DNA of 64,000 bases from Polytrichum commune (taxonomy: Eukaryota; Streptophyta; Polytrichopsida; Polytrichales; Polytrichaceae). A program made the position numbers and the translations under genes. The notes beneath the pieces were generated by a model. It searched no databases, was not told the origin of the DNA, and saw only the letters and a program-made list of their open reading frames with translations. The stretch is from the NCBI GenBank assembly GCA_950295325.1, contig OX485808.1, forward strand, positions 17,938,527 through 18,002,526, in the 5' to 3' direction. This document shows, in pieces, positions 1,886-64,000 of this stretch; positions within the stretch are counted from its first letter, which is position 1; each line of letters starts with the position of its first letter.

Positions 1886-2548
1886 AGAGGAGCAAAAGAA
1901 TTGATTGGGCGTTTCATACTGGTGATCCACACTTGTAGTTGCAGGCTTGAAATGGGCATGGCTATGTACAAGTGGATGAAACGCATGTGATTGAAACTGC
2001 TCTACTTTCAAAGGCTTTTGTCTCATACTCATCCCTGTATGGTCTCACAAATGTTCAAAAGTGTAAATTTGAGAGTGCAAAGTAGTAGATGGGCTTTCAA
2101 CTAGTGTATATAGTTATGGTGACCCTCAAGGCGATCACACCCCCTTACATTTTGTAATAACGTGCAATAATGGGGAATTTAATTTGGGGGGGGGGGGGGT
2201 ATTTATGCACCTCAATATTTTTCCCTCCCTATTTGTAAATAAAAAACTACTTTTACGTATTTCTTAGGACCATTTATTTATTTGTAAATTTTTAGATAGG
2301 CTAATTTTGGCACTATATATATACATATATATATTATACAAGTATCAAATAGTGGACTGAGTACTATAGCATTGCGAAACCAACTATGTGACCAACAAAG
2401 ATTCCATACCATTCAAATTGTCATTCATTTGGTTTTTATTAGTAATACCAATCCTAAACCATTCAAAATACCATTCAAAACAAAACCAATAGCACTTAAA
2501 GCTAGTTAAAGGGCTACCAATAAATTCGGAGACAACAAAATATACAAG
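1886..2548. other. Non-coding stretch 3' of the LRR exon
   Basis: No convincing coding frame. It holds a G14 run (2186-2199), a short TA-rich tract near 2318-2336, and a segment at about 2130-2175 resembling one end of the Mutator-like MITE found at 43,246-43,658 (shared GGCGATCACA...CCCCTTA core). It separates the LRR exon from the transposase relic. Confidence 0.5.
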
Positions 2549-8814: not shown

Positions 8815-9134
8815 AATGTGCAAGTTTCCCTGAATGAAAATGCCCTGCGAGAAAAACAAACAATTTCCCTTCAATGTTAATGTGCAAGTTTCCCTATATA
8901 ATAATTCCCTGCAAGAACTAAATGTAATTCCCTGTTATCACTTAAAATTGTGGGAAATAATAGTATCTTCCCTACAATAAAAACGATCCATTTCCCTCTA
9001 ACATAAAATCTTTTATAATATCCCTACAAGGATACATTCAAACACAGGGAATACATACAAACTAGGAAAGGAGACAGGGAAAACGAAAGAAATCTCCGAA
9101 ACATACACAGGGAAAATGAAAAAAGCTCCTTGTG
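8815..9134 (+). repeat. Subterminal TTCCCT repeat field of CACTA-like copy A
   Basis: About eleven copies of a TTCCCT core lie here. The first eight read on the plus strand (near 8826, 8869, 8889, 8908, 8929 and onward) and the last three read inverted as AGGGAA (near 9047, 9076, 9107). The field ends at the terminal CTTGTG. Known CACTA elements carry such short subterminal motifs as binding sites of their accessory protein; assigning that role here is inference. Confidence 0.5.
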
Positions 9135-9965
9135 CATGAGAACAACTATAGGGTGCTTTTTATTCATTGGCAAGAAAAATTATAGAAACTTTGGATCCAC
9201 CATAGCTTACTTAAATTGCGAAACATGTGATTATATATAATTAAGAATAAGTGGAAAACCCCCACTTTAGGTTTGAGGTAGAAAGAAATTAGTATGACAA
9301 AAATAATAGATGGATTTTTAAAAAATAAAATGAGTATATTCACATGTAATACATGCAAAATGGATGAAAATTGAGCGATTGGGTCATGATATGTACACTC
9401 TTCTTTCACCAATATATAGCAACGTGGATATACGCCATACCATATTGGAGTCTTGAGTTTGCCTTTATACGGAATGAGTAAATCAAAATTTTATAAGTAA
9501 TTTAGCATCATTTGAAATAGTCTAGGTTTTCTTTTATATTTACTTATAGGGTGCTGAATATTTGGTGAAGTTACTTTTTTCTACTTAAAGGATTCTCTAA
9601 AATTCAAATGAGGAGGTAAATAACCTTTGTACACACGTGATTACATAACACAAGAGGGAGTGATCCCCCCAAGGACCTTGGGAAGTTGTAAAGCTCGTTT
9701 TGGGTTGTGTCTTGCATTTTTTAGGGGGGGGGGGGGGGGGTCGGCACCGGTTCTTTCCCACTAGATTGGGTCCCATCCTTGTGGATTAGCAAGGGTCCTC
9801 CCCAACTCTCGACCTTGGCTCTCATTTTGCTCTAGAGCTCGGAGAGCTTCTAGGTGCTCCTAAAGGTGATCAAGGAGGTGGCTATCTTGCACCTCACATA
9901 GAAGGTGTCCGATTGATGTTGGGAGAGAATATGCATTATATGAGCATGACATGCATTTTTAAGTA
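9135..9965. other. Non-coding interval with a G17 tract
   Basis: AT-rich DNA without a credible frame. A run of 17 G at 9724-9740 precedes a short GC-richer stretch (9740-9930). Nothing else recognised. Confidence 0.4.
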
Positions 9966-10440
9966 CACTCTAAACTCCGTAGAGTCACACTTGTGGAAAC
10001 CAAAGTGCATGTGATATTACGGAGTTTTTTAATGTTAACATGGATGTGTGATACTATAGAATTAGTGTAGCATGTGACATTATGGAATAACACAAAGGAG
10101 ATGTGAGGACAATTTGAATTCGTTCTCCCGTCACCTACGCTAGTGTCGTCCACTCCACTTGGCCTTCCTAGGCGATGTGGCGGACGCATGCAACAACATT
10201 CAACAAGTGGCATAAGAAGAAGAAAAAGAAGAAGATACTCCACATGTTGACACATGGTGCAATGCGAGGGTGTGGGTTGACTTCTTGGTTGGTTTGCATT
10301 AATGACAAAATTCATGATATAAGGGTGAGAAATATGACAATAAGGAGTGAGATTTGAACTACTAACATCGGATCCCTAGGGTTTCGGGATATTAGAGAGC
10401 GAGTGACATTATGGAGGGTGATATTACGGAGTTTAGGGTG
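9966..10440. mobile_element. TIR element (475 bp) flanked by TA, Tc1/mariner-like
   Basis: Left end CACTCTAAACTCCGTA and right end (reverse complement) CACCCTAAACTCCGTA match at 15 of 16 positions. TA dinucleotides sit on both sides (9964-9965 and 10,441-10,442), consistent with a TA target duplication. The same family occurs at 21,839-22,167 and 42,600-42,927. There is no coding capacity. Confidence 0.6.
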
Positions 10441-10558
10441 TATAAGACAAGATTGGAGAAGGCTGAGGGTACATTAATTGGGATATGGTAAGACCTAGTC
10501 ACTATAGTTATTGCATCCCATACGAGAGGTGCATGTCAAATGTACTTAAATGACTTGT

Positions 10559-12305
10559 TTTTCTTAATTGGTATGTGGTTTGGTGACGATCAAAGAGCAA
10601 ACATCATAAACATACATGTTTAGTAGAGATTGGACTACATCTTTCAATGTTGATAACTACTCTACATTAAAAAATGAACACAATTGGGAGGTTAACAAGT
10701 CCATAAACATGTGCTTTCAATAACTATAACTAAATCAAGGGAGGTTCGATTTTTCAATATGGTTTGTCAGATGTTTCATCCACGATGCACGCCCATACTC
10801 AACACCAAATGGGGGACGTTAAAATTCCCCCCACGAACTTATAGGGGAGGCAGATTCGGGCAAGGGCAGCCGCCCAGCTAGAAATTTCTGATTTTGTGGA
10901 CCTGACTGAAAATTGTTGCCCGCCCGCCCGACTTTGAAAAAACCATTGCCCTTGCATTCTTGAAGGCCACTTATCCACAAACCCCATATCGAGTGCACTT
11001 CACCTTCAAGGTCCAAAATCTAACATATATGTTTACTTCCATTGAGTAAATAAGCAATTGACCAAGATTTCATTTTCAAAATGAAACCGTCAATAATTCC
11101 AATATGTCTATTTTATCATTAATTAGGCTTAATTAATTTGGTAAGCATACTTTTTGATTTAATTGGTCTTAATTAGGATTAATTAGAATTAACTAGACTT
11201 AATTACATTCAATCACACTTAATTAATTTAAATTCATACGAATACTTTGTGAAAGTAGAAGGTATTAACTAAAAGATTATAATATTTAACATACTAAATT
11301 TAAACCACTAATTTTAGTTCCATTTTAGAATGACAAAGACTCTTGCAAAGGCAAGTCACAAAAATCAAAACCTCGGTGCTAATGAGGGTTTCATAATATA
11401 TTTGACTTCCTAGTTATTTACATGCTTTATTGACGATTTCATTTTGGAAATGAAATCCCAATCAATTGCTTATTTACTTAATGGAATTGAACATATATAT
11501 TAGATTTTGGACCTTGAAGATGAAGTGCACTCAATATGAGATTTATGAATAAGTGGCCTTCAAGAATGCAAGGGCAATGGTTTTTTCGAAGTCGAGCGAT
11601 TGGGCAACAATTTTCGGTCGGATTCAGAAAATCTGGAATTTCTAGCCAGGCGGTTGCTCCTGCCCGAATCTACCTCCCCTATAAGTTCGTGGGGGAACTT
11701 TAACGTCCCCCACACCAAACTAATCTTTAATCAACGGATAACTTTAATCACACAAACTATGAAGTCTATGTGCAAATTGGATATGGTCCCAATTTTTGTT
11801 CTGGTAACTATATATGAATGGCTACTTGTCTCAGTCATCGTTGTCATGCAGGGTTGTTGATTCTTAAATTGAAAATTTAAGTCATCCCAATTATGAACAC
11901 CTTTGAGTGTGGAGTACTTAAATCAATTCAAAGAGTTGGGCCCTAATCTTAGTTTAACATGTGTCTATATGGAGTTCGTTGTTTGACCCTCATCTAAGCA
12001 AACACAGGTGCAATAAAAAGTATGTGGATGTTGTTTGGTTCTATTTTCATGTTCTCCAACTTCTACCGATTAGATTTACTCGTCAAATTTTGTGTTGCAT
12101 TAGGAAATCTACTCTAAAATACTTGTAAAAGCCAGATTGAAAACCATTATATATATGTATATATATAGGTCCTCTTAATTGTGTTCAATTTTGAGTGTAG
12201 AGTAGTTATCCAAACTGGAAGATGTAGTCCAATCTCTACTGAACACGTTTGCTTATGATGTGTGCTCTTTGATCCTCACTGAACCACACACCAATCAAAT
12301 ATAGG
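10559..12305. repeat. Inverted pair of about 140-bp arms enclosing a Mutator-like element
   Basis: The segment at about 10,559-10,693 (containing AGAGATTGGACTACATCTT) recurs in reverse orientation at about 12,170-12,305. Related direct copies lie near 17,960-18,095 and 35,150-35,290, and a weaker one near 34,220-34,330. The pair may be the ends of a larger TIR element that later received the foldback element at 10,811-11,711, or two independent insertions of one repeat. Confidence 0.5.
10811..11711. mobile_element. Foldback Mutator-like MITE with about 290-bp inverted arms and 9-bp target duplication
   Basis: The two ends are long inverted copies. The left arm begins GGGGGACGTTAAAATTCCCC. 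The right arm, reverse-complemented, begins GGGGGACGTTAAAGTTCCCC and stays similar for about 290 bp. Flanking direct repeats are ACACCAAAT (10,802-10,810) and ACACCAAAC (11,712-11,720), 8 of 9 matching, which fits the 9-bp duplication of the Mutator superfamily. The interior has no open frame, so the element is non-autonomous. Confidence 0.72.
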
Positions 12306-13602: not shown

Positions 13603-14594
13603 CTAGTTCAGCTGTGGGTTTGTGTGATCACCACCTACTTGGTAGTGGTCAATGGGTAATAATTAAATAACGGTTAACCCTCTAATGATCAGTGCAAAAT
13701 GGGAATGCGAGCCCAAACACAATATCAACTTTACCGATAAATATCGGATAAGTCTATTATTGTGGGGAAAAAGTGCTTACGAATTTCTTTATGTAGCAAT
13801 ATCCATGGGGATGTTGAAGGTATGGACAAAAATAACTTGTAGGCATTTAAGGATTAAGATGACTTATTGACCCAATGACCCTTGACAATGATCGGGTGAA
13901 GCGTAACGAGTACAATTAGCATGGCTTGGTGGAGAATGGAATGCACACCACTTGCAAGGAAAAATGAGTCTCAATCTTTCAAACTATTGGTTTGATGCCT
14001 TCATTGCCTATAGAGGGCTCCATAAGATATTCACAATGTGATTTGTGGTGGGTAAAGTGGTGATATGATGGTAGTGAATTAACAACATCTAATTGATCCA
14101 ACCCAACATCAACAAATTTTTACAAGAAGGAACGCGTCCATAGAAACAAATAGGACCTTTAGTCAACATACACTTTTTTTCTTCTTCCAAGATACGAATG
14201 TCTAGACATGTGATTTCTACAACGTCAAACAAATCGTGCCTAATGAAATTCAATATTCTCTTAGTCTACGTTCATAGTAGCTCAACACCCTCGTCTCACC
14301 TTGACATGTGTTGTGACGTTACATGACGGTCAAAGGCCACGCCCCATCCATTTGCACATCTTGGAGACAACAAAATTCATCTTTGCAAACAAGTTACAAA
14401 CAATTCATTCCCTGTGAGGTCACCTAACCTTATGTTTTTTGTACACACATCGTTAATTGGGTACATTATGGGAGACTATTATGTCAGTATTTGGGAATTT
14501 AAGTAACACTAATTTCATAAAGGATTGGTGTTTCAAGCGTTTATTGACACCTTACAAATACTTATAATTTTCTATTTACGGGTTTTTCTAGGGG
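13603..14594. other. Non-coding interval
   Basis: AT-rich; no supported coding frame, RNA gene or repeat recognised. Confidence 0.35.
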
Positions 14595-15090
14595 GGTGGA
14601 CTCTTCATACTACATAGAAACTAACATGAGTGTAAGAAGGGTATTATTTGAGGCATCAGCGTACATAGTATACATAAGGGAGAGGCATACTTTTTCTCTA
14701 GCGTGTACATCTAAAAAAGCTATTAATTTTTTTGAAGTAAAGGTTAATGTACAAACGGATAAATACATCTTTGCTTGTTTGATACAATCGTTGAGCTACA
14801 GGCTATGGGTGAAAAAATGTTGAATGACTTTGTCGTTGGCAGGTGAAAGTGGAATTTATGTATAACAGAGAGGCCTATTTAATTCATGATTTATAGTTTG
14901 TATATGTAGTGGAGGTGTTTATCACATTAAATTCAAGGGGCTAAAATAAATACACGAGTTCATTTTCTAGCATGCCATTAGTACGTATATGTATGTTTTC
15001 CTCTATAAACTTCTTGTACATAAGCTTAGGGGTTTAATTTCATAGTGACCCATCCACGTTGACATTTAGGTTTCCAATGAAGAGTCCACC
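14595..15090. mobile_element. Short TIR element, family 'GGTGGACTCTTCAT', copy 1
   Basis: The left end GGTGGACTCTTCAT and the right end ATGAAGAGTCCACC are exact reverse complements. Internal sequence is shared with the element at 15,445-16,148. Left-end sequences of the same family also occur at about 27,436 and 48,638. Non-coding. Confidence 0.6.
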
Positions 15091-18304: not shown

Positions 18305-20542
18305 TCAGGCCCTTGAATCCTGAGCCTGCAAACTCCCAATAGACTCGCTAGGAGCGGTGGAAATGTGGTCAGCGGTGAGTCCTTTTCGCTCCACTGTTAA
18401 GTTTACATGGTGGTATCTGAACCACTGATGGAGTTTATGGGCCTCCGGAAATCCCTCTGCCCAATTATTAATGTACAGAACCGCTGACGGAATCATGTGA
18501 AGAGATCTAGCGGGCACAACCCATTCCAGGACTTCAGAACTGAATGAATTGTGCACATGATGACGTCTCTGGAAGTGCTTGATGTATTCGTTGCAGATCG
18601 TGTCTTCCGGGTTTACATACAGATGAGGAACGTAGCCGATTTGAAGCAGCTTCTGGGAGTCTCTTTTCATGTTCTCTACGTTGGACGACTTGGCGATTTG
18701 GCTACCCTTCCTTGACAATGTTCCCAATATATTCGCACATACACTATACACCCTATCAGTACCTGCCCTTATGTTTAAGATGTTTTTCATGCCAAGAGTG
18801 TCGAGCAGTCTATTCCCTGTATCGCCCACACCGTTGAGGACACCCCGCATTGCTTTACTTGTCAGTCTACCAACGGTCAAGTAGGGGGGATTGAAGAGGT
18901 GGGGGTTGATCACAACACCGTCATCAATCGCAAGGGAACGAGTAGCAATAAGGGCGAATGCAGCTCCCAGCGAGTGCCCAGCAACCCATATATCGCGAGG
19001 GTTGTACTTACGAGTGATTGCCTGCAACAAACGCGTCACAGGCAACGCATCCTTTACATGCAAGACCTCACCAACAATCTTGATGTCGCTCCTTATGTCA
19101 TCAGAACAAGAGCGTATTGTACCTCGGATAGCGAACAAATACTTAGGCAGTCCCACAGGTATGAGCCGATCCTGGGGAGCCTGCACCGAATTGCAAAAAG
19201 AATCAGTCCGCATGGCACCCTTAAGAATCCTTGGACCAGAAACAATTAGCCGCTGCAAAGTAGGCTTCGGACGTAGAGAGTGACATGCAAACAGATTAGA
19301 GTGAGTAAATAACTGCAGTTTAAAAAAGGAAGACTGATATTCTAGGCTTCAAGGGACAGGGAGGAACTGCATTTTGGACAGTGCAAGAGATTTGTTTTTT
19401 GAAGGGTCGTTTACACTGGGGTGGTGGTGGATCTGGGGTTGTCACTGGCCGTGGTTATAATTTACTTACAATCTTCTTTTGTTCTACTTAAAAGATGGTA
19501 AATTCCAAAACCTCCTTTTACCCTCATCAACCCCACTACTCCGGATGCCTAAAACCTTTCGGGAGTAGTTAAAATTTTCCATTTTGTTGAAAATTAAAAT
19601 TTTCCATTTTGTGTTCGTGCTCATCTGGCATCATTAGGAAGCATGAAGACTAAGGTCCCGGGAGAAAGTTGAGGAAGGGAAGGGCCACATACATTCCCAC
19701 CCGAACTTGACCATGTAGATTGACGTCGGACACGTTCCCATTCCAACCTCGAAATCTCAACAGAAACGAGGTCGGCCTCGGTAAACCCCTCCAACCCTAA
19801 TAAAAAGCCATCTATTGTCATCCACTATTGAGATTTTGAGGCTGGGGTTGAGGTTGTGGAAATATAGATGATATCACGCCTACGCGTATGAAACATCGTG
19901 ACCAGTGCTCATAACCTGAGGATTGGTAGGAGGAACGGGAGGGAGCAGGAAGAGGATGACAGTTCGGCCGTCGCCGTGAAAGCTTGATCCTCTACAATGC
20001 AAGCGTGGACCTACAGGCTGCTTTTGGTGCGATTTGGCTCAAGAGTGGTGCGATCTACCCAAGGATGGGCCATCCTAATACCATTGGACAACACAAAATG
20101 GAAAATTTTAATTTTTCGGAGGAATAATGCAACTTCCAGGTACCTGACAGTCTGATCTTTTGAAGAGCAAAACGCGGACACATTGATCTTTAGATTGGCC
20201 ACGATCACTAACACTACGGCGGTCCTCATCCACCTCCTTGTATGCCCCAGCAAGGATGTCAAATCCAACAACCTCGTAACCCCAATACGTCCAATGGTCC
20301 TCGATATGTACAAAATATGGAACCCCCTCCTGCTGACAATTCTTGTAAATCCCTTCGATGATACACGATAGGACCTGCGAAACCTCTGGATCGTTCTTGA
20401 ATGCAATGCACTCTTTTGCGTCAAGAATGCGCTGGACAGTCTGGTTATCGTTCCGACGCCTTCCCAGGAATTTGCATAACTGTCCACCTACTCCAAGGGC
20501 AATGAGAAATGTGGCCATGATAATGGTTGTCAACAACAACAT
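18305..20542 (-). CDS. Alpha/beta-hydrolase (lipase class 3 fold, At4g10955-like), paralog 1
   Basis: Two exons: 20,144-20,542 and 18,305-19,252, spliced at CAG|GTACCT and TTTGCAG|CGG in phase 0, giving about 448 residues. ATG at 20,542 is chosen because exon 1 then equals the 399-nt exon of paralog 2; MATFL at 20,518 is an alternative. The N-terminus (MLLLTTIIMATFLIALGVGG) is hydrophobic and may anchor the protein in a membrane. Exon 2 has the FAIRGT strand, then the nucleophile elbow GHSLG (Ser about 227), the family motif LFNPPYLT, and a C-terminal IPSAVLYINNW...AHKLHQWF block. The family is often mislabelled GDSL esterase; its fold is that of class 3 lipases and its substrate is unknown. 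No frameshift or stop is seen within the exons. The gene lies in copy 1 of the segmental duplication. Confidence 0.78.
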
Positions 20543-35485: not shown

Positions 35486-38205
35486 TCAGGCCCTTGAACG
35501 CCAATCCTGAGCCTGGGAACTCCCAATAAACTTGCTAGGAGCGAGGGAAATCTGGTCAGCGGTGCGTCCTTGTCGCGCCACTGTTAAGTCTACATGTTGG
35601 TATCTGAACCACTGTTGGAGTTTATGGGCCTCCAGAGGTCCCTCTCCCCAATTATTAATGTACAGAACCGCCGACGGAATCATGTGAACAGATTTAGCGG
35701 GCACAACCCATTGGCTGACTTCAGAAAAGAATGTAGTATACACATGATGATGTCTCTGGAAGTGCTTGATGTATTCGTTGCAGATCGTGTCTTTCGGGTT
35801 TACATACAGATGAGGAACGTAGCCGATTTGAAGCAGCTTCTCGGAGTCTCTTTTCATGTTCTCTGTGTAGGATGACTTGGCGATTATTTGGCGACCCTTC
35901 CTTGACAAATTTTTCATTGGAATCTTACATTTATTAGCCACCTTGTCAATACCTGCCCTTATGTTCCAGGTGTTCTTCATGCCATAACCGTGGAGCACTC
36001 TATTCCCTATATCGCCCACACCGTTGAGGGCACCCCGCATTGCTTTACTTGCTAGTCTATCAACGGTCAAGTAGGGGGGATTGAAGAGGTGGGGGTTGAT
36101 CACAACACCGTCATCAATCGCAAGGGAACGAGTAGCAATAAGGGCGAGTGCAGCTCCCAGCGAGTGACCAGCAACCCATATATCGTGAGATATATCGTGA
36201 GGGTTGTACTTACAAATGATTGCCCGCAACAAACGCATCACTGCAGACAACGCCTCCCCTAAATGCAAGACCTCACCAGCAATCTTGATGTCGTTCATTA
36301 TGTCATCGTAACGAGAGCGTATTGTACCTCGGATAGCGAACAAATACTTAGGCAATCCCACACGTATGAACTGGTCCGGTGTGCCTTCAACTCTCATCCG
36401 AACGTGCGGGGGAGCCTGCACCGAATTGCAAAAGAAATCAGTCCACATGGCACCCTTAAGAATCCTTGGACCAGGAACAATTAGCCGCTGCAAGGTAGGC
36501 TTCGGACGTAGAGAGTGACATGCAAACAGATTAGAGTGAGGAAATTACTGCAGTTTAAAACGAGGAAGACTGATATTCTAGGCTTCAAGGGACAGGGAGG
36601 AACTGCATTTTGAACAGTGCGAGTGTTTTATTTTTCCAAGGGTCGTTTACACTGACGTGGTGGTTGGATCTGGGGCTGTCACTGGCTGTGGTTATAATTT
36701 ACTTATCTTCTTCTTTTGTTCTACTTAAAAGATGGTACAGTCCACAACCTCCTTCCTTCTACCCTCGTCAACCCCACTACTCCGCATGGCTAAAACCTTT
36801 CGGGAGGACGGTTCATGCTCATCTGGCACCACTCGGAAGCATCAAGACTAAGGTCCCGGGAGAAAGTTGAGGACGGGAAGGGCCACATTCCCACCCGAAC
36901 CTGGCCATGTAGATTGAGGTCGGACACGTTCCCATTCCAACCTCAAAATCTCAATAGAAACGAGGTCGACCTCGGTAAACCCCTCCAACCCTAATAAGAA
37001 GCCATCTATTGTCATCCACAATTGAGAAGCCGTCTATTGTCATCTACTATCGAGATTTTGAGGCTGGGGTTGAGGTTGGGATGGCCTTGCTCTTATCCAC
37101 AACCACCTTACTCGTACAAGCCAGTGTTGGGTGTTCTTTGACAAAGTTCCCGATCCACAATGTGCTTACCTCACATTGAAGGTTATACGGTTAGATGTAA
37201 CGACCCTTTAAACCTCAAGATGAAATCACTTCCTGACGATTTGTATGGACTAGATTACCGTGAGAGGAGAGTGGATGACGAGCTGCGCACTTCCGATCAG
37301 CATATGGACTAATCTTGGAATTATGGATGATTTCACGCCTACACGAATGAAACATCGTGACCAGTTCTCACAACCTGAGGATTGGTAGGAGGAACGGGAG
37401 AGAGCAGGAAGAGGTGAAGAGTTCGGCCGTCGCCGTGAAAGCTTGATCCTCCACAATGCAAGCGGGTACCTACAGGCTGCTTGTGGTGCGATTTGGCTCG
37501 AGTGGTGCGATCTACCCAACGATAGGCCATCCTAATGCCATTGCACAACACACAATGGAAAATACTAATTTTCCGGAGGAATAATGTACCTTCCAGGTGC
37601 CTGATTGTCTGATCTTTCGAAGAACACAACCTGGGCACATTGCAACCTCAACAACCTGCACGATGCAAGCGTGAGCCTACAGGCTTGTGGTGTGATTTGG
37701 CTTGAGACTGGTGCGATCTACCCAACGATGGGCCATCCTAACACCATTTCACAACACAAAATGGAGAAATTTCATTTTTCGGAGGATTAATGTAACTTCC
37801 AGGTACCTGAGTACTGTGTGATCTTTCGAAGAGCACAGCCCGGACACATTTATCTTCAGATTGGCCAAGATCGCCAACACGACAGCGGTCCTCGTGCACC
37901 TGATCGTATATAAGGTTGTCAAATTCAACAATCTCGTAACCCCAATGCGTCCAATGCTGGTCGAAATGTTGGAAATATGGACCCTGCTCCTGCTGCGCAC
38001 ATGTACAACGCTTGTAAACCCCTGTGACGATACACGACAGGAACTGCGAAGCCTCTGTCAGGTCGTTAAAGGTATTGCACTCGTTTTCGTCAAGCATGCG
38101 CTGGTAATTCTTCTCATCGTTCCGACCCCTTTCCCACATTTTGCGTCCCTGCTCCCATGCTCCTGCTCCGATGACCGCGGCCACAGCAATTGATACAAAC
38201 TCCAT
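35486..38205 (-). CDS. Alpha/beta-hydrolase (lipase class 3 fold, At4g10955-like), paralog 2
   Basis: Two exons, 37,807-38,205 (399 nt, ATG at 38,205) and 35,486-36,487, use the same CAG|GTACCT donor and GCAG|CGG acceptor as paralog 1 and give about 466 residues. The N-terminus MEFVSIAVAAVIGAGAWEQG is hydrophobic but differs from paralog 1. Exon 1 encodes SQFLSCIVTGVYKRC and the HWTHWGYEIVEF region; exon 2 has FAIRGT, GHSLG (Ser about 242) and LFNPPYLT. Compared with paralog 1 it has about 13 extra residues before FAIRGT and a 4-residue tandem insertion (PHDISHDIW for PRDIW). The 1.3-kb intron contains a second, partial exon-1-like copy (37,450-37,655). No stop or frameshift is seen in the exons. 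Substrate unknown. Confidence 0.78.
37450..37860 (-). repeat. 207-bp local tandem duplication covering the end of hydrolase exon 1
   Basis: The sequence at about 37,663-37,855 (3' part of exon 1, donor and intron start) is repeated at about 37,456-37,648 in the intron, with an offset of 207 bp. The intronic copy has a decayed donor region (CAGGTGCCTG read in reverse). Paralog 1 has only one copy. Confidence 0.65.
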
Positions 38206-54075: not shown

Positions 54076-54527
54076 CCAAAACCACAAACCCCTTAACCCT
54101 CTCCTACTTAGTAGGACCTTATATCACTATATTCGTTAATCGGAGATTTTTGAAAGTCTCAAAATTAAATATGCCCATAGTTTGGGATGCCAATATTGTG
54201 GGCATATAGAATATTGGGAACATCAAGAACATGATGATTTATAAATTCGCATGCGAAGAATATTCTCATTACTAAAAATAGAAAGTCTCAATTACAATGA
54301 AAACGTGTAGTCCATGTGAAAAATAACAATGGACTTTTAAAAACAAATTGTTTATGTCATTTTAGAGTTTAGGGTGCCCATCCCAAAAGTAAGGGTCTTA
54401 TAAAGTTGGATGACACATCCCAAACATATGCCACAATGGAATGTGACAAGTCTACTAAGTCTATTAAAAACCAAGCTTGCTAAGCTCACATGCCTCTCGC
54501 CATTAACTCCCACCTAGTATGTTATGT

Positions 54528-57500
54528 TTACCCATCTCCATCTTCCGCTTCATATCCATTGTCCGAGTCATTTTCCGCAGCTGCAATACGTGCCAAATTG
54601 TCCTTGGCAAAATCTATATGTTTTTGGGGAATGGTCATTGATTCTGTTTTGGAACCTTTGCGCGGCTTCCAAGCACAAAGTATAGTATCCGTGTTTATCC
54701 GAACCGGTTTGTACGCTGAGTCCACTGTCCACTTGAAATTCTTTTTGGTGTCCCAACCTAAATAAGTGCGAAGTACGTTCTGGTCTTTAGTGCTTGGACG
54801 GCAATATTCCACCTCAATTTGACGAAAGTTGGGGCTAGTTCGAACAAAATTGGGTGAAGACAATGTTTTCACCAACCAAATTGGTTTGGGATGCTCCTCA
54901 TCCCCAGCTCGTACGAGCACCAAATAACCTTCATGGCAATCAACCCCAACACGAAACGACAGTGCCGGTCGATTGCGGGCAGGGCCAACGTAATGTTCAT
55001 CCATTGCGAACTCTTCACGAACGTCTCCATTGTTGAAAAACATGGTGTCAGACTTGACAACCGTCAAACGACTTTGTGGCCAAAACCCTTGTGTCAAAGT
55101 CGTACAGGTGTCGCCATCAACTGTCACTAGGGCCGAGCGAATGCGATCCCAATATGAAATCAATGGTTCATGAGTATCTCTAACACATCTAGTGATGTCC
55201 TCCTCACACAACTCCTTCCAATATTCAATGAATCCGGATATGCCTTTGATGATCTCCGGTCGATTCCTCATGGGGTTGGGTTTACAAGGCTTTGGATCCC
55301 CATCCGGGAGCAAACATTTCCCATCATTGTCTTGACACCATACTAGTATACCGTCATCCGGGCCCCAATTAGGAGATGTGCACAAAAGCTTGAATTGTAT
55401 GGCCGGGAGACCATCATCCCTCATATAGAATCGGAATTGTTGTGCTTTGGTGTGTCCCACCAAACGGTCCCTTCCTTTCAACATGTATGGCTTGATGAAG
55501 GCCTTAAAATCTAGTACTTCCTCGATCATGTGCGGAATCACCGGCATATGGTCCAAATCCATATACAATTTCATAAGAAGTGGTATGGTTGGAAAATCTT
55601 CCTCATGCAACTTCATGCTCCACCGTCCGAAGGACGCATCAATGTCGTCATGTATGTGTCCCACCATCAAGAAAGACAAAAACACCTCCTTGAAGATACC
55701 TTTTGCCACAAGCAAAGACCAAAAACAAAATACGTATCGACATTTGTTGTCCTTTGCGCAATTATCAAGTTGAACGTGGAGAGTTGGAGGCAAAAGTTTT
55801 ACACAAATAAGCTCTCTGGATGTTTTCTGCAATGACGACATACAAACCTCCTTATCCGCAAGCACTGTCTCGTAAAGGGGTGTCGTTCCACACCCATCAA
55901 ACAATGCACGTGAAGACTATATCGGCGGTTTCTCTAGATCGCGCAAGAGTTTTGCAAATGAACCCACCGTGTGGTTAGTATCGCCAGGGTAAAAATCCAA
56001 ATCATAATGGGCATATTTTACGTCCCCATGGCCGTGGGCAATCATACCTATAAAAAACAAACGATGGATTAATCTCCAAAAAAATGAAGAGACCACTGAA
56101 GTAGAACATTTGGAAAACACACCCAATAAAATTGGATTTATGGTGAATATAGGTTTGTGATGCCATACAAACCTGTTACAGATACGGGCAACTTGAAAAG
56201 ACCATCCGTGGCCTTTATTTTGCGAGCATAACAAGGGCATGCGGTCTTCGAGTGGTCCATTTTATCATGGATAACTGTTAGAACCTCTGTAGGCCTCATT
56301 ATGGACAAAGCACGGTTCTTGTAGTAATCTTGACGGTGAGCCTCTTGGTTGTTGACATGTTCAATATATTTTGCCTGATGCCTGCTATGAGACTCAGTAC
56401 CTATGGGGTGGGCAACTCGAAGACCTTTGTATTTTTCACACGTCGTGCACCTCGCGAACTTGTCACCAAGTCTCTTCAAAATGTATTCTGCAAATTGTTG
56501 GTTTTTAATGACACTCAACTTGGACAAAGAAATGGGCCCACAACTCGCTATGCGACCCACTTCGTTGATATCCGTTAATATGTTCTTCCATTTTGTGCCC
56601 GTGGGCAACACCATTCGAACAACTTTCTCCCCTATCGACAACGTCCTCGTCTTGTGGGGCATTGCATCGGCCAATGGCACTATGATCGTGGAGAGTGTGG
56701 CGGAGGCTTGGAGTGTAGCCTCCCTAGGTTTCTTTGTGCCCGCATTGCCATGAAATCGAGAGCGACGACCCAAGGATGAATACTTTCTAAACCTATAAAA
56801 GTCAGCCTTGGAGACGGCATGAATGGTATACCATGCGGTACAACACACTTCCACATTCTCGAGGGTGACCACCTTATGGCCATGGGCATCAAGGTGCAAA
56901 TTTCTATGGACCTCGAGTTTCTTTGCTGACCTCATACGAAAATCTGCTAGCCACATCTCCTGACGCAAAGACTTAATTTTTTCGCGGTGGAAAAATTGGC
57001 AACATCTTTTTGCACAACAGTCCTTGGCGGACACGAGACGGATAGAATCGTCTCCTAATATGCGATCATGTCGACGCTCTTTATCCTTAGGAGGCGCGCG
57101 GCTAGAATCATATCTACAGAGGCCTTTGCGAGGACGAGTGTTGGAAACCAAGGTTGATTGAACTTGCTCATGCCGTCGCCCATGATCCCACAAGCTTACT
57201 TCTTCATGAAGAACCCGACGAAGGGACCATCGGCGCAATGAAAACCTCCAAGTCACAGGGACCTCAAGCGGAAGCAAAGAATTCAAGATGCACACCCCAA
57301 CATCATGGAGACCAAGGGGATTGGCATCAACACATTCACGGGGATCGGAGTTTCTACATATGTCATTTGCCACCGGGACACCTAGATCATTAAGTAGAAC
57401 CACATCAAGGCCCACCCATTTCTCCCTACCATATCCTGCACACAAAGGAATGTCATCGTCGTCCACACCGGAATGTAGAGAACGGTCGTGCACTTGAAAA

Positions 57501-57649
57501 GAATCATGAGAGGATGTACGCAATGACACACCCTCCACGTTTGTGTCGTCAAAACTACCCGCGGATGAGGATGAAAGTTCACATTCACGAACGGAGGACG
57601 ACATGTCTGTTGACAACTCCAGAGAACTACCACCCACATGCATCGCCAT
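54528..57649 (-). pseudogene. DUF7869-type transposon gene with one in-frame stop
   Basis: Two coding exons, 56,173-57,649 and 54,528-56,047. The 125-bp intron (ACAG|GTTTGT ... TTATAG|GT) keeps the frame, giving 999 codons. ATG at 57,649 is preferred: it follows an acceptor-like TTTTTGTAG, so an intron in the 5' leader is likely. Cysteine-rich segments (AKDCCAKRCCQFF, ARCTTCEKY) precede VIHDKMDHSKT (about residue 475). After the intron come VQLDNCAKDNKCRYVF (Asp about 587) and GHIHDDIDASFGRW (about 623). These match the three acidic blocks of DUF7869 proteins, thought to be RNase-H-like transposases. A single TAG at 55,917-55,919 (codon 536) interrupts an otherwise intact frame. The gene is GC-richer than its surroundings, and a dyad array lies just upstream. 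Confidence 0.68.
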
Positions 57650-57756
57650 CCCACCTACAAAAACCAGAGGCACCAGGAGACCCAAACGTAAACGAAAGAA
57701 TGACAGCCAATATGGACAACATTCAACGCAACATGCCAAATCAGTCAAGTTCTAAA

Positions 57757-58743
57757 TACGAACGTCCGTTCGTATACAACTGCAATAATGAATGTGCATG
57801 TGTGTGGAAGTCAATAACTTAGAAAGCCTTTCAAGGTGCTATCATATTGATCGCAGGTGGAATTTACGAACGTGCGTTCGTTAATTACAGACCATCGACC
57901 TGCATGAGCAGAACGCAGAAGTTTTTTATACGAACGCACGTTCGTATAGCATAGGATGAATGAGTTTGGGTATAAAGGTTTATAAACGAGGAGTATTTCT
58001 TGGAAACCAGGACAAAACTCGCATGTTGTATTCACGAGAAAAATTTGTAAATCACAACTATCCGGAATTTCCAAGAGTATATCGGGACAAAATAGATAGC
58101 ATGTTTACGAACGCACGTTCGTAAAACCATAGCAATCACTATCTGCACGTGTACACCAGAAAATCATAGATGGCGTACTTACGAACGCACGTTCGTAAAT
58201 GAACAACCATTATATTTATAATTATACACACATAAAAGCGTAGATGCCACATTTACGAACGCACGTTCGTAAATGAACCACCATTCGCACTGCATATGAT
58301 TGATATACATGTGTCACAACGTCGACTATGGTCTACTTTGGTAGTTACGAACGCACGTTCATAAACCCACAACATTCCGTCCGATCCAACAGTTCTAGTG
58401 ATGGGACCTCGTCTTTACGAACGCACGTTTGTAAAACCACAACAACCCCTATCTGAAGGTGTACACCAAGAAATCATAGATGGCGTACTTACGAACGCAC
58501 GTTCGTAAATGAACAACCATTATATTTATAATTGTACACACATAAAAGCGTAGATGCCACATTTACGAACGCACGTTCGTAAATGAACCACCATTCGCAT
58601 CGCACATGATTGATATACATGTGTCACAACGTCGACTCTGGTCTACTTTGGTAGTTACGAACGCACGTTCGTAAACCCACAACATTCCGTCCGATCCAAC
58701 TGTGCTAGTGATGGGACCTCATCTTTACGAACGCGCGTTCGTA
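57757..58743. repeat. Dyad array A: 12 copies of TACGAACG-NN-CGTTCGTA
   Basis: 18-bp dyads start at 57757, 57865, 57929, 58106, 58180, 58254, 58346, 58416, 58490, 58564, 58656 and 58726. Nine have perfect 8-bp arms; those at 57865, 58346 and 58416 have one change each. Many extend to 10-bp arms (TTTACGAACG). The centre is mostly CA, with TC, TG and CG also seen. Spacings from 58,106 on run 74, 74, 92, 70, 74, 74, 92, 70. The array lies directly upstream of the DUF7869 gene. Confidence 0.9.
58106..58743. repeat. 310-bp tandem duplication inside dyad array A
   Basis: 58,106-58,415 and 58,416-58,743 are near-identical at an offset of 310 bp, each holding four dyads with the same internal spacing (a 12th dyad closes the second unit). 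Spacer differences are few, so the duplication is recent. Confidence 0.85.
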
Positions 58744-59138
58744 AGTTTCCGGTATTTGCGGCGGTATATTAGGGATATGCTATGTCATGTACCTGTGAGG
58801 AGTACGGTTGGCGAACAGGAGGGTGGCTTGAGCGCGCTCCGACGACTCTCTAGAGCGCACACCTCCCGTCAGCCGCAGAAAAGAGCTCTTCCGTGGGGGG
58901 AAAAGCTTTAAGTACCTCCCCCCGGTGGTTCAAAATCTCTTGGATGCTCTTTAAAAAGCGGATTCCCACCCCCTACCTAGACCTACCAATATGCCATTCC
59001 CGCCATGCGATTCCCGCCATGACCAATTATATAAATAGCATTTTGTATGCAACATGTATTGCATGCACGCACATTATATTGGAAAAAAATGTAAATTAGT
59101 CGCACACCTTAGATGTAACCAAGGTCTGAACAACCAAA

Positions 59139-59180
<42 letters not shown>

Positions 59181-60420
59181 ACATGATATTTAAATATTAT
59201 GAATTTTGACATAGAAGATTAAATGATTTGCAACCAAGGTGTGAAGTCCAAGTTAATGAACAATTCATATCTACTACAATAATGGTATATTTGGTAATTG
59301 GAGTCATTTAGTTGATTTTGAGACTATTTAAGAACGCACTTTAAATTTCAAATATGGACTTGTAATTACAAACTAAAATTTCCATACGTATAGTTTCCAA
59401 ATCGGATGCAACTAACATTAGACATAAAGGCATTGAAGTGAACGAAATTATGAAACATAGTTACATGAAAATATTTGCACATGAAATGAGAAATAGACCC
59501 CAAAGGAAGGGAACATACCGAGAATTAATGGAACTTGAATCAATTCAATGGAAATACCATCCATAACTCTTAACCTTGATATATAAAAGAAACTAAATAT
59601 AGAAACTATATTTATATCACTCAATAAGGTGGGAGTGGGACTCATGGACCCATGAATAGAAAATCATTGACGCATGAATTAAGGGCCTAAGACATGCAAG
59701 TTATAATAATATTAAGTATGGATTGTGTGATCAGATTCTATAATAACTATTAAGTTATTATTTCATCATAACTCTTAAGTTTCAAGTTTCATTAATCACA
59801 TAAACCAAATTTTTGTCTCAATTCAATTAATTTAGAATCTCCAAATGACAATCGGCATGATTCTCAATTATTACGATTGATATGAATCGAATAAAGCAAT
59901 TTCCAATCCATCGAACATCGGTAGATCATTTTGACATGCCCATAGATCACAACATGGCCACATACAAGACTACCATGTAAGATACAAAGATGCAGGGATG
60001 TAGAGTTTAGGGTTGGTGATAGTGTTTAGGGTTTAGGGTTTAGTGTATTCGACCACATGGCTGCAATGCACAAGTTCAATCTAAAATGTCCTCAGATGAA
60101 TGACGATAAACAAAATTCAAGCATGTTTACTAAGTTATTGAAGTTAATGTGATAGACGCATCCATTACATATAGGGTTTACAAATCATGAATTTAATGTG
60201 AACTCATTACTTATACATTCAAGTCGTTATAAGTGTTACATATTGTAGAATGTTTCATTCAATTAATAGTTAAGTTGAATTATATATACTATCGTTTATG
60301 CTTTTTTTGTATTAAACCTTAGGGTCCTCTTTTTAAAAACAATTAGTGTTATTTCTATAAATGTTCATGGTTTTGGGTTTTAGTTGTACAAGTGTTACTT
60401 GTACATTTTGTATAGTTGTT
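58744..60420. other. Non-coding interval between the arrays, left part
   Basis: It contains a (TA)n tract at 59,141-59,177 and a telomere-like tract TTTAGGGTTTAGGGTTTAG at about 60,025-60,043. No supported gene. Confidence 0.4.
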
Positions 60421-61600
60421 CTTTTTTAAACCCCCCCACCCAAGGCTGATTTTTCACAAAGTTTTTGCCCGTCCACGTCCAAAAACCTTGAATTGAAAGG
60501 CAAAAAAAATTGCAACCCGTCCCAAAACCGGTAATTATTTCTAAACCAACCCGTCCATGGAAAGGTTAAAGGAAAAACAACCCGTCCCAAAACAGGTAAT
60601 TTCTAAACCAACCTGTCCATGAAAAGGTTAAAGAAAAAAACCAATTAATAAAGATAAACCGAAAGATGTTGGCATGTGATTGGTTGCACTTGGAAACAAT
60701 AGGATTTTGCTTCAATGCCATCAGTACTATGTCTTTTTGCTAATTTCAGCTGCCACCACCCGCATTCCCTCCATGACATTGCCCCCCCCCCCCCAATTTC
60801 TTCCATTTGAGTTTTGAAGCTCTTCCCATCGAGCAGGTATTGAAGCTCTTCCCATTGACAAATCTGAGTTAGTTAGGTATCTCTTACACACATTCTTTCT
60901 ATATCTTTTGGGCATGAGGGATTATGAGGTTTTGGGTGAAGGATTTGAGTTTTTTTTTTGGAACAAGAACTGGTAGGCTTCGCGGTCGAGGAGATTCAAC
61001 CTACCTTTTTGTGTCATGCATTGCAATATGTGAGAGGGGTTTTCCTAAACAAAACCTAATCAAAAATCATCTACGTACTAGTTTGAAGTTAGAAACTTTA
61101 GATGCTTTGATGCGCTTTTCATGTGCAAATATTCCAGTTGAAAACATCAATTGGAATGCAGTGATGCTTGTTTGGAGAAACATGAAGGATAGGAGAATTC
61201 ATCCACTTCTTTGAAGGGTAAGTAGGTATTTATTTTTAAAATTTTGATCATAAGTGTACCTTCAATTATAATCTTTGACATTATGTTAAAAAGGTTCTAA
61301 ATTTTGTGGTTGATGAATTAATGTATGCAGGTGAATCAAGCACTTCAATTTGATATATTGATTGGGTATTAGTGGTTTGATTGCATTATGCTTATATTCA
61401 CATGTCATGTATGACATAATGTAATTGATATTTATACCATTTATGTTTTTTGGACAAAAATTATAAAAACATTATTTTTAGAACCCGTCCAAAGTAAATT
61501 TGACACGTCCAAAAACCGGTTCATTTTCTAAGAATCCGTCCACTGGAAATGTTTTTTTTTATGAACATGTCCCTAGACATGTTAGGGACCTTTTGAAAAA
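60421..61600 (+). mobile_element. hAT-like relic with clustered CCCGTCC motifs at both sides
   Basis: A transposase C-terminal fragment at 60,924-61,214 is flanked by clusters of CCGTCC/CGTCCAAA motifs (left 60,468-60,620, right 61,488-61,545). The possible ends GGCTGATTTTTCACAAAG (about 60,443) and, inverted, GGGCATTTTTCAAAAG (about 61,590) are similar but imperfect. Target duplication unresolved because of C-rich flanks. Borders approximate. Confidence 0.45.
60924..61214 (+). pseudogene. hAT transposase C-terminal (dimerisation) fragment
   Basis: A frame of 96 codons from an ATG of doubtful relevance to TGA. Residues from about 33 on read AICERGFPKQNLIKNHLRTS and LKLETLDALMRFS, then NINWNAVMLVW. 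This aligns block for block with the relic at 38,997-39,606 and is the hAT C-terminal dimerisation region. No upstream catalytic part is present in frame; a 10-T run lies within the frame just after its start. It is a fragment only. Confidence 0.65.
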
Positions 61601-62611
61601 TGCCCCTACCCCCCTTCATCTACCCATATCTACCCATCCCATCCCACCCATCCCCCTCACACCCTCCCATCTCCACCCATCTCCCCTCCCCATCCCCACC
61701 CATCCCCCCCCCTCCTCATCCCTTCCCATCTCCCATGCTCATCCCTTCCCATCCCATCCATGCCCAAGCGCGGGCCAGTGGAGGGATGCCACATGGCAGC
61801 CGCAGGGAAACCCTAGCGGTGCCGGCTACCTCCCCGCGCCCCTTCCTCTCCTCCTCATTCTCATTCCCAGCAGAGAGAGGAGGAGCGAAGTAGAGCGGAG
61901 CGAAGCTCTCGCAAAATTTAGAATGCTTTAGTTTATGTGTTTTTTTGGCATCTTAGGAGTCGCATCTTTCTCTTCAGTTTGGAACGAATCTTATTAGAGA
62001 GCTTCAGAGTTGTGTGCATCAGGAGTAGAGAGCTTCTGAGGTTGTGAGCTTGTGCAGGTTGCAAGCTTTTTTTTTTTTGTTGTTTTTGTAAGCTTCATAG
62101 TTGCAAGTCTGGAGGAGACATCTTGCTAGGTGAAAGCTTGAAGTTTGTAGGCTTCAGAGTTGCAAGCTGTGCTTTAGTGGTTGTTTTTGTGAGCTTGATA
62201 GTTGCAAGCTTGGAAGAAGGGAACTTGAGAGTTGCAAGATTGCAATTTCAATGCACATGAGTAGTTGCTAGGGTTTAGGTCTCATTCAATTGTATACAAG
62301 GAGAGTTCCAAATTTTTCAGCAAGAAGAAAGAAGGTCAAGCACATTGCAATGTGAGTGAAGTAATCCTTCTAAACTCGCTTCCCAAACATTTTGAAATTC
62401 TGCATTGTTGAATTCCATGGGTTTTGTTTGTATTGTCAACTTGTTTAGCATGAGATCTGGCATGTTGTGTATGCTTTATGAATTCTGCACTGGTTTGGTT
62501 TCAGTATCCTGGTTCTGATCCAGTGTTGTAGGCACGAACGCAAGCATTCTTCAGAGCTGAAATGCATACGTATACGTATACGTACATGTACGGACACAAT
62601 GCATTCAAGAA
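61601..62611. other. Non-coding leader-like interval upstream of array B
   Basis: C-rich simple sequence (61,600-61,760), a short GC-rich stretch (61,760-61,910), and degenerate repeats of a GTTGCAAGCTT-like core between 62,000 and 62,250. No supported coding sequence. Could include promoter or leader for the gene at 63,222, unproven. Confidence 0.35.
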
Positions 62612-63188
62612 GTTCACATTTACGAACGAGCGTTCGTAAATGTGAACACAACCTGCAAACCAAACCTGTTGTGACCCCTCCCAGTCCATGTGTTTACGAA
62701 CGCACGTTCGTAAACACGCAACCCAGCCTCTGTTCATGTGTTTACGAACGCGCGTTCGTAAACACGCACCCCTAAACCCCTAAACCCCTAAACCCCTAAA
62801 ATTTACGAACGCTCGTTCGTAAACAAGGAATACATAATACTCTGAGTATTTACGAACGCACGTTCGTAAACACACAATCCCTTCCCATACCTCATTATAC
62901 GAACGAGCGTTCGTAAGTGACTTGCCTTGTGCCCGTCCAAAGATTTACAAACGTGCGTTCGTAAACACATATTGGACAACTTGAAGATATAAATCAGTAC
63001 AAGTCACAACATAACAAAATAATATAAACACAGTGGTATTTAAAACACATAAACTTCTAAAGCCAAAAGAATAGCCTCTCAAACAGAACACATTTAGGAA
63101 CGTGCGTTCGTAAATATCTCAACAACCATTGTTCAAAATATTTGAAAATTGTAGAACTCTGTCTGCTAAATACGAACGCTCGCTCGTA
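62612..63188. repeat. Dyad array B: 9 copies of TACGAACG-NN-CGTTCGTA
   Basis: 18-bp dyads start at 62621, 62695, 62743, 62804, 62851, 62898, 62946, 63095 and 63171; six have perfect arms. Some arms are longer: the first is a 36-bp perfect dyad (62,612-62,647) with 17-bp arms GTTCACATTTACGAACG around AG, and the second has 13-bp arms GTGTTTACGAACG. Centres are AG, CA, CG, CT and TG. Four CCCCTAAA units sit between dyads three and four. Confidence 0.9.
62769..62800. repeat. Four tandem CCCCTAAA units
   Basis: An exact 8-bp repeat, a one-base-longer variant of the plant telomere unit, lying between two dyads of array B. Confidence 0.9.
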
Positions 63189-63221: not shown

Positions 63222-64000
63222 ATGGCCATCCCTAACAGAAGCGCGATAGAGATGTTCGGGGAGAAGTTGGAGAGTGTCCCAGAGTCGGTGACCGACGACA
63301 ATGGGAATGACAATTATGTCCCACAGGAGGACTTCATGAAAGAGTGGACGGCGCTTCCAGAGATGTTAGAGGATGGAACATTCGTCCTCCGCTTCGTCTA
63401 CCAGCTCAATACCAAAGACGATTAACTAGAGCAGTGGGTGCAGATGGCAACATGGGAGATAGATTCCGTGGAGGCACAGGGCAATTACGTAATCTTCAAC
63501 ATGAAGTACAACAATGACCACGTCAACGTGTTGCTGGACTACTTGGCATACACCTTCTCCCACAACTATGCGCAGATGCATGTTAAAGAGGAGGGAAAGT
63601 GTTTCGATCTGACAAAACTCTTCACAAGATATAGCCTAAGTCAACACTGGACAGCCAGGAAATTGACCGCTTTGTGCTTGAACATCTCCAAGACCAACAG
63701 TGCTGTGTTGGAGGCCAACAAGAAGAAGAAGAGTCCCAAGAAACCAATGCAATCCGGTGCAGGCGGATCCAGAAGTGCTCCGCGGCTTGTTCCCACTGCG
63801 AGCAGATTGACGGAAGGTACCAGCAGACATTCCACTCCTTTGAAGAGAACGAGGGACGACATGGAGAAGTCTGGCGTAACTGAGGGCGCAGAGGTCAGTT
63901 CCCCGCCAGTCATGCCGGCTCCGTTGCAGAATGGAGAGGTACCGGACGGTGCGAAGGCCACGCGCATCCTTCGAGATTTTAACAGTTACTCGAAGGACTG
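63222..64000 (+). pseudogene. Unrecognised gene with one in-frame stop, open at the right edge
   Basis: ATG at 63,222 directly follows an acceptor-like TGTTTTGCAG. The frame reads MAIPNRSAIEMFGEKLESVP and continues to a TAA at 63,423-63,425 (codon 68), then stays open for 191 more codons to the window edge. Downstream peptides include LEQWVQMATWEIDSVEAQ, DYLAYTFSHNYAQM and a lysine-rich KKKKSPKKP that could be a nuclear localisation signal, then a Pro/Ser/Thr-rich stretch. GC content is raised and reading-frame quality is good on both sides of the stop. I recognise no family. Its array-B leader mirrors that of the DUF7869 gene, so it may be the second gene of the same element, perhaps a DNA-binding accessory protein (inference). 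Confidence 0.5.

Follow-up and report, generated by a model that had tools for sequence, protein, structure and literature searches.

Palindrome arrays of DUF7869 transposons in Polytrichum commune as probable family-specific targets of an element-encoded protein

The 64-kb window of the Polytrichum commune genome analysed here (contig OX485808.1, C6:17938527-18002526) contains two clusters of a short palindrome, TACGAACG-NN-CGTTCGTA (dyad 1), upstream of two divergent genes. Searches of the genome, which comprised 408 Mb in 64 contigs, showed that these clusters form arrays in the interior of a large DNA transposon encoding a DUF7869 protein, and that related transposon families carry other palindromes of the same shape. 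Sequence comparison indicated that the dyads are probably family-specific binding sites of about 22 bp for a transposon-encoded protein, which would regulate the element and perhaps oppose its silencing. Binding, binder and function are what we infer from this arrangement.

Dyad arrays inside a large DNA transposon

A scan of the window allowing up to 3 mismatches returned 21 copies of dyad 1, 15 exact and 6 with one mismatch, while 100 dinucleotide shuffles of the window gave none. All copies were confined to array 1 (57757-58743, 12 copies) and array 2 (62621-63188, 9 copies), neither of which is assigned a strand. Array 1 lies upstream of a DUF7869 gene on the minus strand (gene 1) and array 2 upstream of another gene on the plus strand, with its ATG at 63222 (gene 2). 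An earlier note on this DNA had described the same number of copies, their confinement to two clusters and the divergent arrangement, all of which were confirmed. Dyads extended beyond the window end, with 12 more (≤3 mismatches) in stretch L001 (last 9.5 kb past the window). The unit had been described as an 18-bp sequence with 4 CpGs; this core was recovered, but the true repeat was about 22 bp long, TTTACGAACG-NN-CGTTCGTAAA, with a 10-bp arm on each side of the 2-bp centre. Among 274 exact dyads, the flanking bases were T/T in 264 and 251 and A/A in 259 and 248; arms and two flanking bases were conserved, and the centre and outer flanks were variable. Nor are the 4 CpGs general, the arms of sister-family dyads containing 2 or 0.

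Genome-wide, 4,680 exact dyad 1 sites were found, with none for the reversed control, indicating that dyad 1 belongs to a high-copy repeat and not to this locus alone. Among the first 100 dyads listed, 97 had a listed element end, or a listed exon of gene 2, no more than 12 kb away, a distance at which 6.4% of the stretch examined would qualify by chance. Of the remaining three, one had a gene 2 exon at a distance of 13.5 kb, another (L024) was inside a fragment of the element with 88% identity across 1.5 kb, and the last (L025) displayed only short array-type similarity. Of the gene 2 exons listed for C1 and C2, 48 in all, 32 had a listed left end 8.2-12.2 kb upstream in the correct orientation; the random expectation was a mean of 0.25, with a maximum of 3 in 1,000 trials. 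Both counts support the link proposed in the earlier note between the dyads, DUF7869 elements and the gene starting at 63222. Dyad clusters across the genome with no association to these genes, which the note had set against its own proposal, were not seen.

Full-length copies of the transposon (family 1) were 16.1 kb long, with termini AACACTATATTCG...CGAATATAGTGTT. Two long copies, C1:25750628-25766739 and C1:68340583-68356718, were 98.8-99.4% identical, with not every reading frame proved intact; this identity indicates that family 1 probably moved recently. A matching inverted end closed a family-1 copy at C1:639072, and the end pattern occurred 790 + 810 times genome-wide at ≤2 mismatches (reversed control, 0). 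Taking AA/TT as the outermost bases, 4-bp target duplications were found by eye in 8 of 10 end pairs (CATA, CTTA, TAGT, ATCA, ACAT and TAAT in 6/8; ACCT and AGTG in 2/2). The two pairs without a duplication were copies of identical length on C2. Inverted ends and a target duplication together identify a DNA transposon with terminal inverted repeats.

The first long copy (L016 and L017) contained three genes. Gene 1 (457-3928, minus strand) encodes the DUF7869 domain (PF25273, E 4e-40). Gene 2, on the plus strand, is split into exons, of which the first two span 8954-10249 and 10371-11696 and the third starts at about 11837; its splice sites were read by eye, and the acceptor of exon 3 is ambiguous. 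Gene 3 (13871-14653, plus strand; L017 3871-4650) encodes a NIF/FCP1-like phosphatase (PF03031, E 7e-16). Dyads formed one array before gene 1 and another before gene 2, both predicted introns of gene 2 held a pair, and degenerate dyads were found towards the 3' end. Measured in the two full-length copies, the distance to the nearest dyad (≤1 mismatch) was 3.8-3.9 kb from the left end and 2.8-2.9 kb from the right end, with a single 3-mismatch site about 1.1 kb from the right end. DUF7869 matches were scored at no fewer than 150 loci genome-wide (1,492 candidates), and the ParB-like exon of gene 2 at no fewer than 150 loci (940 candidates).

Six short copies of 9.0-10.1 kb (L004-L011) kept the ends and 32-53 dyads at ≤1 mismatch, the full-length element having fewer (25-26). 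Their nearest dyads were 1.2-1.6 kb from the left end and 0.8-2.8 kb from the right. When genes 1-3 were searched with tblastn, all six copies returned remnants, namely a 49-residue piece of gene 1 and a phosphatase fragment, and no match to gene 2.

The window copy is damaged. Its left terminal inverted repeat (54123-54150, no strand) reads (AT)CACTATATTCGTTAATCGGAGATTTT, the first two bases being AA in the other copies read, and a locus alignment placed a sharp left boundary at 54125, CACTATATTCGTTAATCGGAGA, common to two other dyad clusters. Gene 1, the candidate transposase gene, has its DUF7869 exon at 54528-55916 (minus strand; PF25273, E 1.5e-37 for the translation) and an upstream exon at 56138-57649 (minus strand; open frame 56138-57751) with 87.5% nucleotide identity to the full-length copy. 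An in-frame TAG at 55917-55919, just ahead of the DUF7869 exon, has no stop at the corresponding position of the aligned copy L016:457-2076. The spacer between the arrays (58744-62620, no strand) contains blocks retained in the gene-less 9-10 kb copies at about 69-74% identity. Exon 1 of gene 2 starts at 63222 on the plus strand and runs to 64000, the gene continuing into L001; its product appears ParB-like/methyltransferase-like (motifs by eye), and the exon carries an in-frame TAA at 63423-63425. The right end of this copy was not found in the stretch tested, which extended 9.5 kb beyond its end.

Both divergent genes of the window have an acceptor-like sequence immediately ahead of the start codon, and the arrays may therefore be situated in introns of the 5' untranslated region. 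In gene 1, the acceptor-like TTTTTGTAG precedes a candidate start codon at 57649, both read by eye; in gene 2, TTTTGCAG is found immediately before the ATG, and array 2 is possibly inside such an intron.

Elsewhere in the window, an LRR-rich open frame at 254-1885 matched R13L1/DRL21- and RPS2-type sequences, the pattern of plant NLR resistance genes. Two open frames on the minus strand (18305-19348 and 35486-36544), about 17 kb apart, matched class-3 lipase and are perhaps a tandem gene family.

Sister families and their palindromes

Family 2 (stretches R, S and Y), with about 34% identity in the DUF7869 domain (PF25273, E 5.6e-44), lacked dyad 1. At the same two places as in family 1 it contained arrays of another palindrome, GTGAGGCA-NN-TGCCTCAC (dyad 2), in tandem units of mostly 59-61 bp, with an imperfect variant ending ...TGCCCCAC beside gene 1. 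The termini of R and S were AACACCGGTTTCGTTAA...TTAACGAAACCGGTGTT, flanked by the 4-bp duplications TTCC and GAAG (2/2). No phosphatase was found in family 2 (best E 0.054, in R). Family 3 (stretch U; 52% identity) contained a third palindrome, CACGGGTG-NN-CACCCGTG (dyad 3), ahead of genes 1 and 2, within a predicted intron of gene 1, and inside or close to introns of gene 2; the ends of U were looked for and not found. This family encodes a phosphatase (L029 4978-5799; PF03031, E 4e-11). In both families with a phosphatase (1 and 3), its gene adjoins gene 2 and the acid pair of the protein reads D-x-N-G, not D-x-D.

Exact sites numbered 953 for dyad 3 and 203 for dyad 2 genome-wide, with no match to the reversed patterns. 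At ≤2 mismatches there was no cross-occurrence: dyad 1 was found only in the 9 family-1 stretches, dyad 2 only in the 3 family-2 stretches and dyad 3 only in U. A de novo search for 8-bp inverted arms, carried out on four elements from the three families (P, R, S and U), gave a gap of 2 as the highest-ranking spacing in P, R and U and as joint highest in S; the same search applied to window 1-54000 returned no palindrome recurring more than twice. The same divergent layout, combined with different palindromes of the same 8-NN-8 shape in two related families, suggests that the palindromes label the DNA of each family so that a self-encoded protein recognises it.

The DUF7869 hit at C1:33072282, with dyad 2 about 3 kb away, was considered as an exception to this specificity and rejected. 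The protein is 86% identical to family 3, and two dyad-3 sites, each with 2 mismatches, lie 5' of its gene; the dyad-2 array belongs to neighbouring sequence with 77-88% identity to family 2, so that a family-2 piece adjoins a family-3 gene.

A fourth palindrome, with the core GGCCTCGG-AT-CCGAGGCC, has 2,217 exact sites genome-wide and forms arrays, one of them a dense array of GAGGCCTCGG-AT-CCGAGGCCTC at L032 59-4262 (C1:2253558-2257761). This array ends about 4 kb from a DUF7869 copy at L002 278-1585 (about 44-45% identity), which has no N-terminal half upstream. Because the L002 gene is partial and the other listed C1 clusters of this palindrome are, by inspection, not near listed DUF7869 matches, a fourth DUF7869 family was not counted.

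The candidate binder and competing explanations

The constant geometry and family-specific arms of the dyads point to a dimer encoded by each family. This fits the dimeric-protein footprint that the earlier note had suggested for the repeat. We propose that a dimeric element protein, most likely the gene 2 product, would bind the arrays and switch both divergent genes. The bound protein would also mark element copies, gene-less ones included, to protect them from silencing or to allow their mobilisation in trans; the transposase is taken to be the DUF7869 protein. By analogy with accessory proteins of other transposons, the gene 2 product is considerably the likelier binder when set against the DUF7869 protein, and anti-silencing would be a plausible role of the dyad system.

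Gene 2 proteins of the three families were related by blastp among 13 sequences (families 1 and 3, E 3e-8 and 7e-9; families 1 and 2, 4e-4). They all keep a (D/N)GQH motif and its neighbourhood, presumably akin to the motif of ParB-type domains; no profile hit stands behind the ParB-like label. Another region resembles N6/N4 methyltransferases by eye, with the DPPY slot reading D-x-R (IDFRGIPG, IDFRSIPG, MDTRFLPG and FDCRNGP in aligned copies). The active site would thus be altered if the region is homologous, and the enzyme may be dead. Compared with the chromosomal PF01555 protein T, gene 2 gave no significant match in families 1 and 3 (hhalign E 0.34-0.41), nor in family 2 (E 0.017-0.028, probability <3%). 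Several weak hits were set aside: Nitrate_red_del (0.006), HAUS-augmin3 (0.001; exon 3, below cut-off), a PHROG without known function (0.014, over a 36-residue stretch of family 3), Fas inhibitor (0.57), Crov588 (0.057) and a Mediator subunit (0.39). Searches of viral contigs returned no relatives, either for DUF7869 or for the gene 2 alignment (600 pattern matches, 0 confirmed). A single-sequence structure model of the DUF7869 exon (pLDDT 31.6) was meaningless and was not used.

A chromosomal gene for an N6/N4-type DNA methyltransferase, whose protein is the one compared with gene 2 above, was found at L026 4227-5957 (C1:9661226-9662956; PF01555, E 1.1e-7). It contains a DIPYG motif with a DGNH stretch upstream, and none of the four palindromes occurs in its 10 kb. 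Matches to PF01555 near the starts of contigs C10 and C12 are possibly bacterial contamination of the assembly.

The dyads might instead be DUF7869 transposase sites for assembly of a transposition complex, like the subterminal repeats of CACTA elements. In favour of this reading, the DUF7869 gene and the dyads co-occur in three families, and gene-less copies with ends retain the arrays. We nevertheless consider this unlikely: the nearest well-conserved dyads of full-length copies are kilobases from both ends, at the distances given above, and the position of dyads before both genes and in predicted introns is better suited to gene control. Taken together, these positions suggest a role in expression or chromatin control rather than end synapsis. 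The same enhancer-like placement before both genes could reflect the binding of a host transcription factor or chromatin protein exploited by the transposons. This explanation is improbable, a host factor being expected to recognise one motif, whereas the palindrome differs by family within the same geometry.

Tandem duplication could also have amplified a palindrome by chance within array units, leaving dyads as functionless by-products. Array 1 contains a 300-nt repeat with 310-bp spacing, and tandem units are present in family 2 and in the gene-less family-1 copies (about 33-93 bp in the latter). Chance amplification has an equally slim prospect of being right, considering that conservation is concentrated in the arms and two flanking bases while centre and outer flanks vary, that single or paired dyads are found outside tandem units, in predicted introns, and that the geometry recurs in three families. 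Least probable of all is that the palindromes act as hairpins in RNA or single-stranded DNA. Some dyads do lie in predicted introns and their inverted arms are perfect, but the majority are upstream of coding sequence, and an RNA loop needs more than the 2-bp centre, making a stem of 9 pairs with a loop of 4 bases necessary.

Several observations weigh against a family-specific site bound by an element-encoded protein, or against gene 2 as its source. The binder could instead be the DUF7869 protein. The six gene-less copies are related and seemingly form one lineage, so retention of their arrays counts as one event and not six. Family 3 is known from one full and one partial stretch. The L032 array of the fourth palindrome encloses two dyad-3 sites, and the listed dyad-3 site C1:13975223 falls within another fourth-palindrome array. 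The gene 2 link between families 2 and 3 is weak (blastp E 0.011), the methyltransferase-like region of family 2 was unmatched to those of families 1 and 3 (hhalign E 0.3-0.9), and searches of Pfam, NCBIfam, PHROGs and PDB with gene 2 returned nothing supporting the ParB or methyltransferase labels. Lastly, CpG transitions were the commonest dyad mutation, with 122 against 50 non-CpG transitions (8 and 8 sites) among 400 dyads, 274 of them exact, the copies not being independent. Their predominance indicates present or past methylation at the dyads of some copies at least, and we make no claim of CpG protection at dyads. The observed/expected CpG ratio was 0.96 in the full-length copy and 0.88 with dyads masked, versus 0.51 in window 1-54000; this higher ratio fits youth of the element equally with hypomethylation.

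Relation to known systems and significance

VANDAL elements are MULEs, and to our knowledge it is mainly for them that sequence-specific escape of a transposon from host silencing has been worked out. The nearest working model for the dyads is VANC21, which binds family-specific motifs standing in tandem in introns and noncoding regions of VANDAL21, in vivo and in vitro (PMC5735166), and VANC motifs evolve together with the protein (PMC5735166; PMC10398659). The DUF7869 elements share with this system a DNA transposon with accessory genes and short, family-specific motifs densely arrayed upstream and in introns, which differ between related families. They differ from VANDALs in the DUF7869 transposase candidate and the 4-bp duplications, and whereas the VANC21 motif is 9 bp long in a single orientation (PMC5735166), the sites described here are 22-bp palindromes. 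Methylation loss is a further feature of VANC/VANDAL. A Pfam profile scan of genes 1-3 gave no MULE or VANC-type hit above cut-off.

In En/Spm (CACTA), TnpA binds subterminal repeats and controls the element's own promoter; CACTA/EnSpm elements produce a 2-3 bp target duplication and encode a Transposase_21-type transposase. A second element protein with repeated sites, here putative, is a feature in common, and CACTA is found two bases inside the family-1 ends, which read AACACTA. CACTA membership was initially suspected from the CACTATATTCG ends. It was dropped because of the 4-bp duplications, in contrast to the 3 bp of EnSpm (PMC12730594), and because the family 2 ends, AACACCGG, lack CACTA. 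The dyads are, moreover, kilobases from full-length ends, and the Pfam scan of the gene 1 exons gave DUF7869 alone above cut-off, with no Transposase_21 hit. The CACTA-type subterminal repeats invoked in the earlier note were thus not borne out as membership, and fit as an analogy. The target duplication matches the 4 bp of Sola1. Sola2 also duplicates 4 bp (PMC3627910), and Sola1 is listed for Physcomitrella (PMC9033089).

Giant algal transposons such as Sola1-1_Ec32 encode ParB-like and N4C/N6A-methyltransferase-like proteins, proposed to bind and modify their own transposon (PMC12477816). The elements described here are likewise large and have ParB-like and methyltransferase-like parts (by motif only), a likeness of description; they differ in the D-x-R of the DPPY slot and in having a candidate target site. 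In the literature searched, which covered few subscription papers, we found no mention of DUF7869, no description of such operators and no reported DNA target for the ParB-methyltransferase-like proteins of algal or plant transposons.

The broadest interpretation is offered tentatively, and we hold it to be possible rather than probable. DUF7869 transposons may possess modular self-recognition, in which family-specific 22-bp operators of fixed geometry, set ahead of the genes and within introns, would be read by a fast-diverging ParB-like/methyltransferase-like protein with a replaced catalytic motif. This would provide anti-silencing or self-control independent of VANC, and the operators would be the first DNA target identified for the ParB-methyltransferase accessory class. 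If true, a second, unrelated group of transposons would have family-specific operators, which would show that self-marking evolves repeatedly. Such families would also supply ready protein-site pairs with which shifts in DNA recognition among related proteins could be tested. As the operators are short and defined, the ParB-methyltransferase-like proteins of algal and plant transposons would become directly testable.

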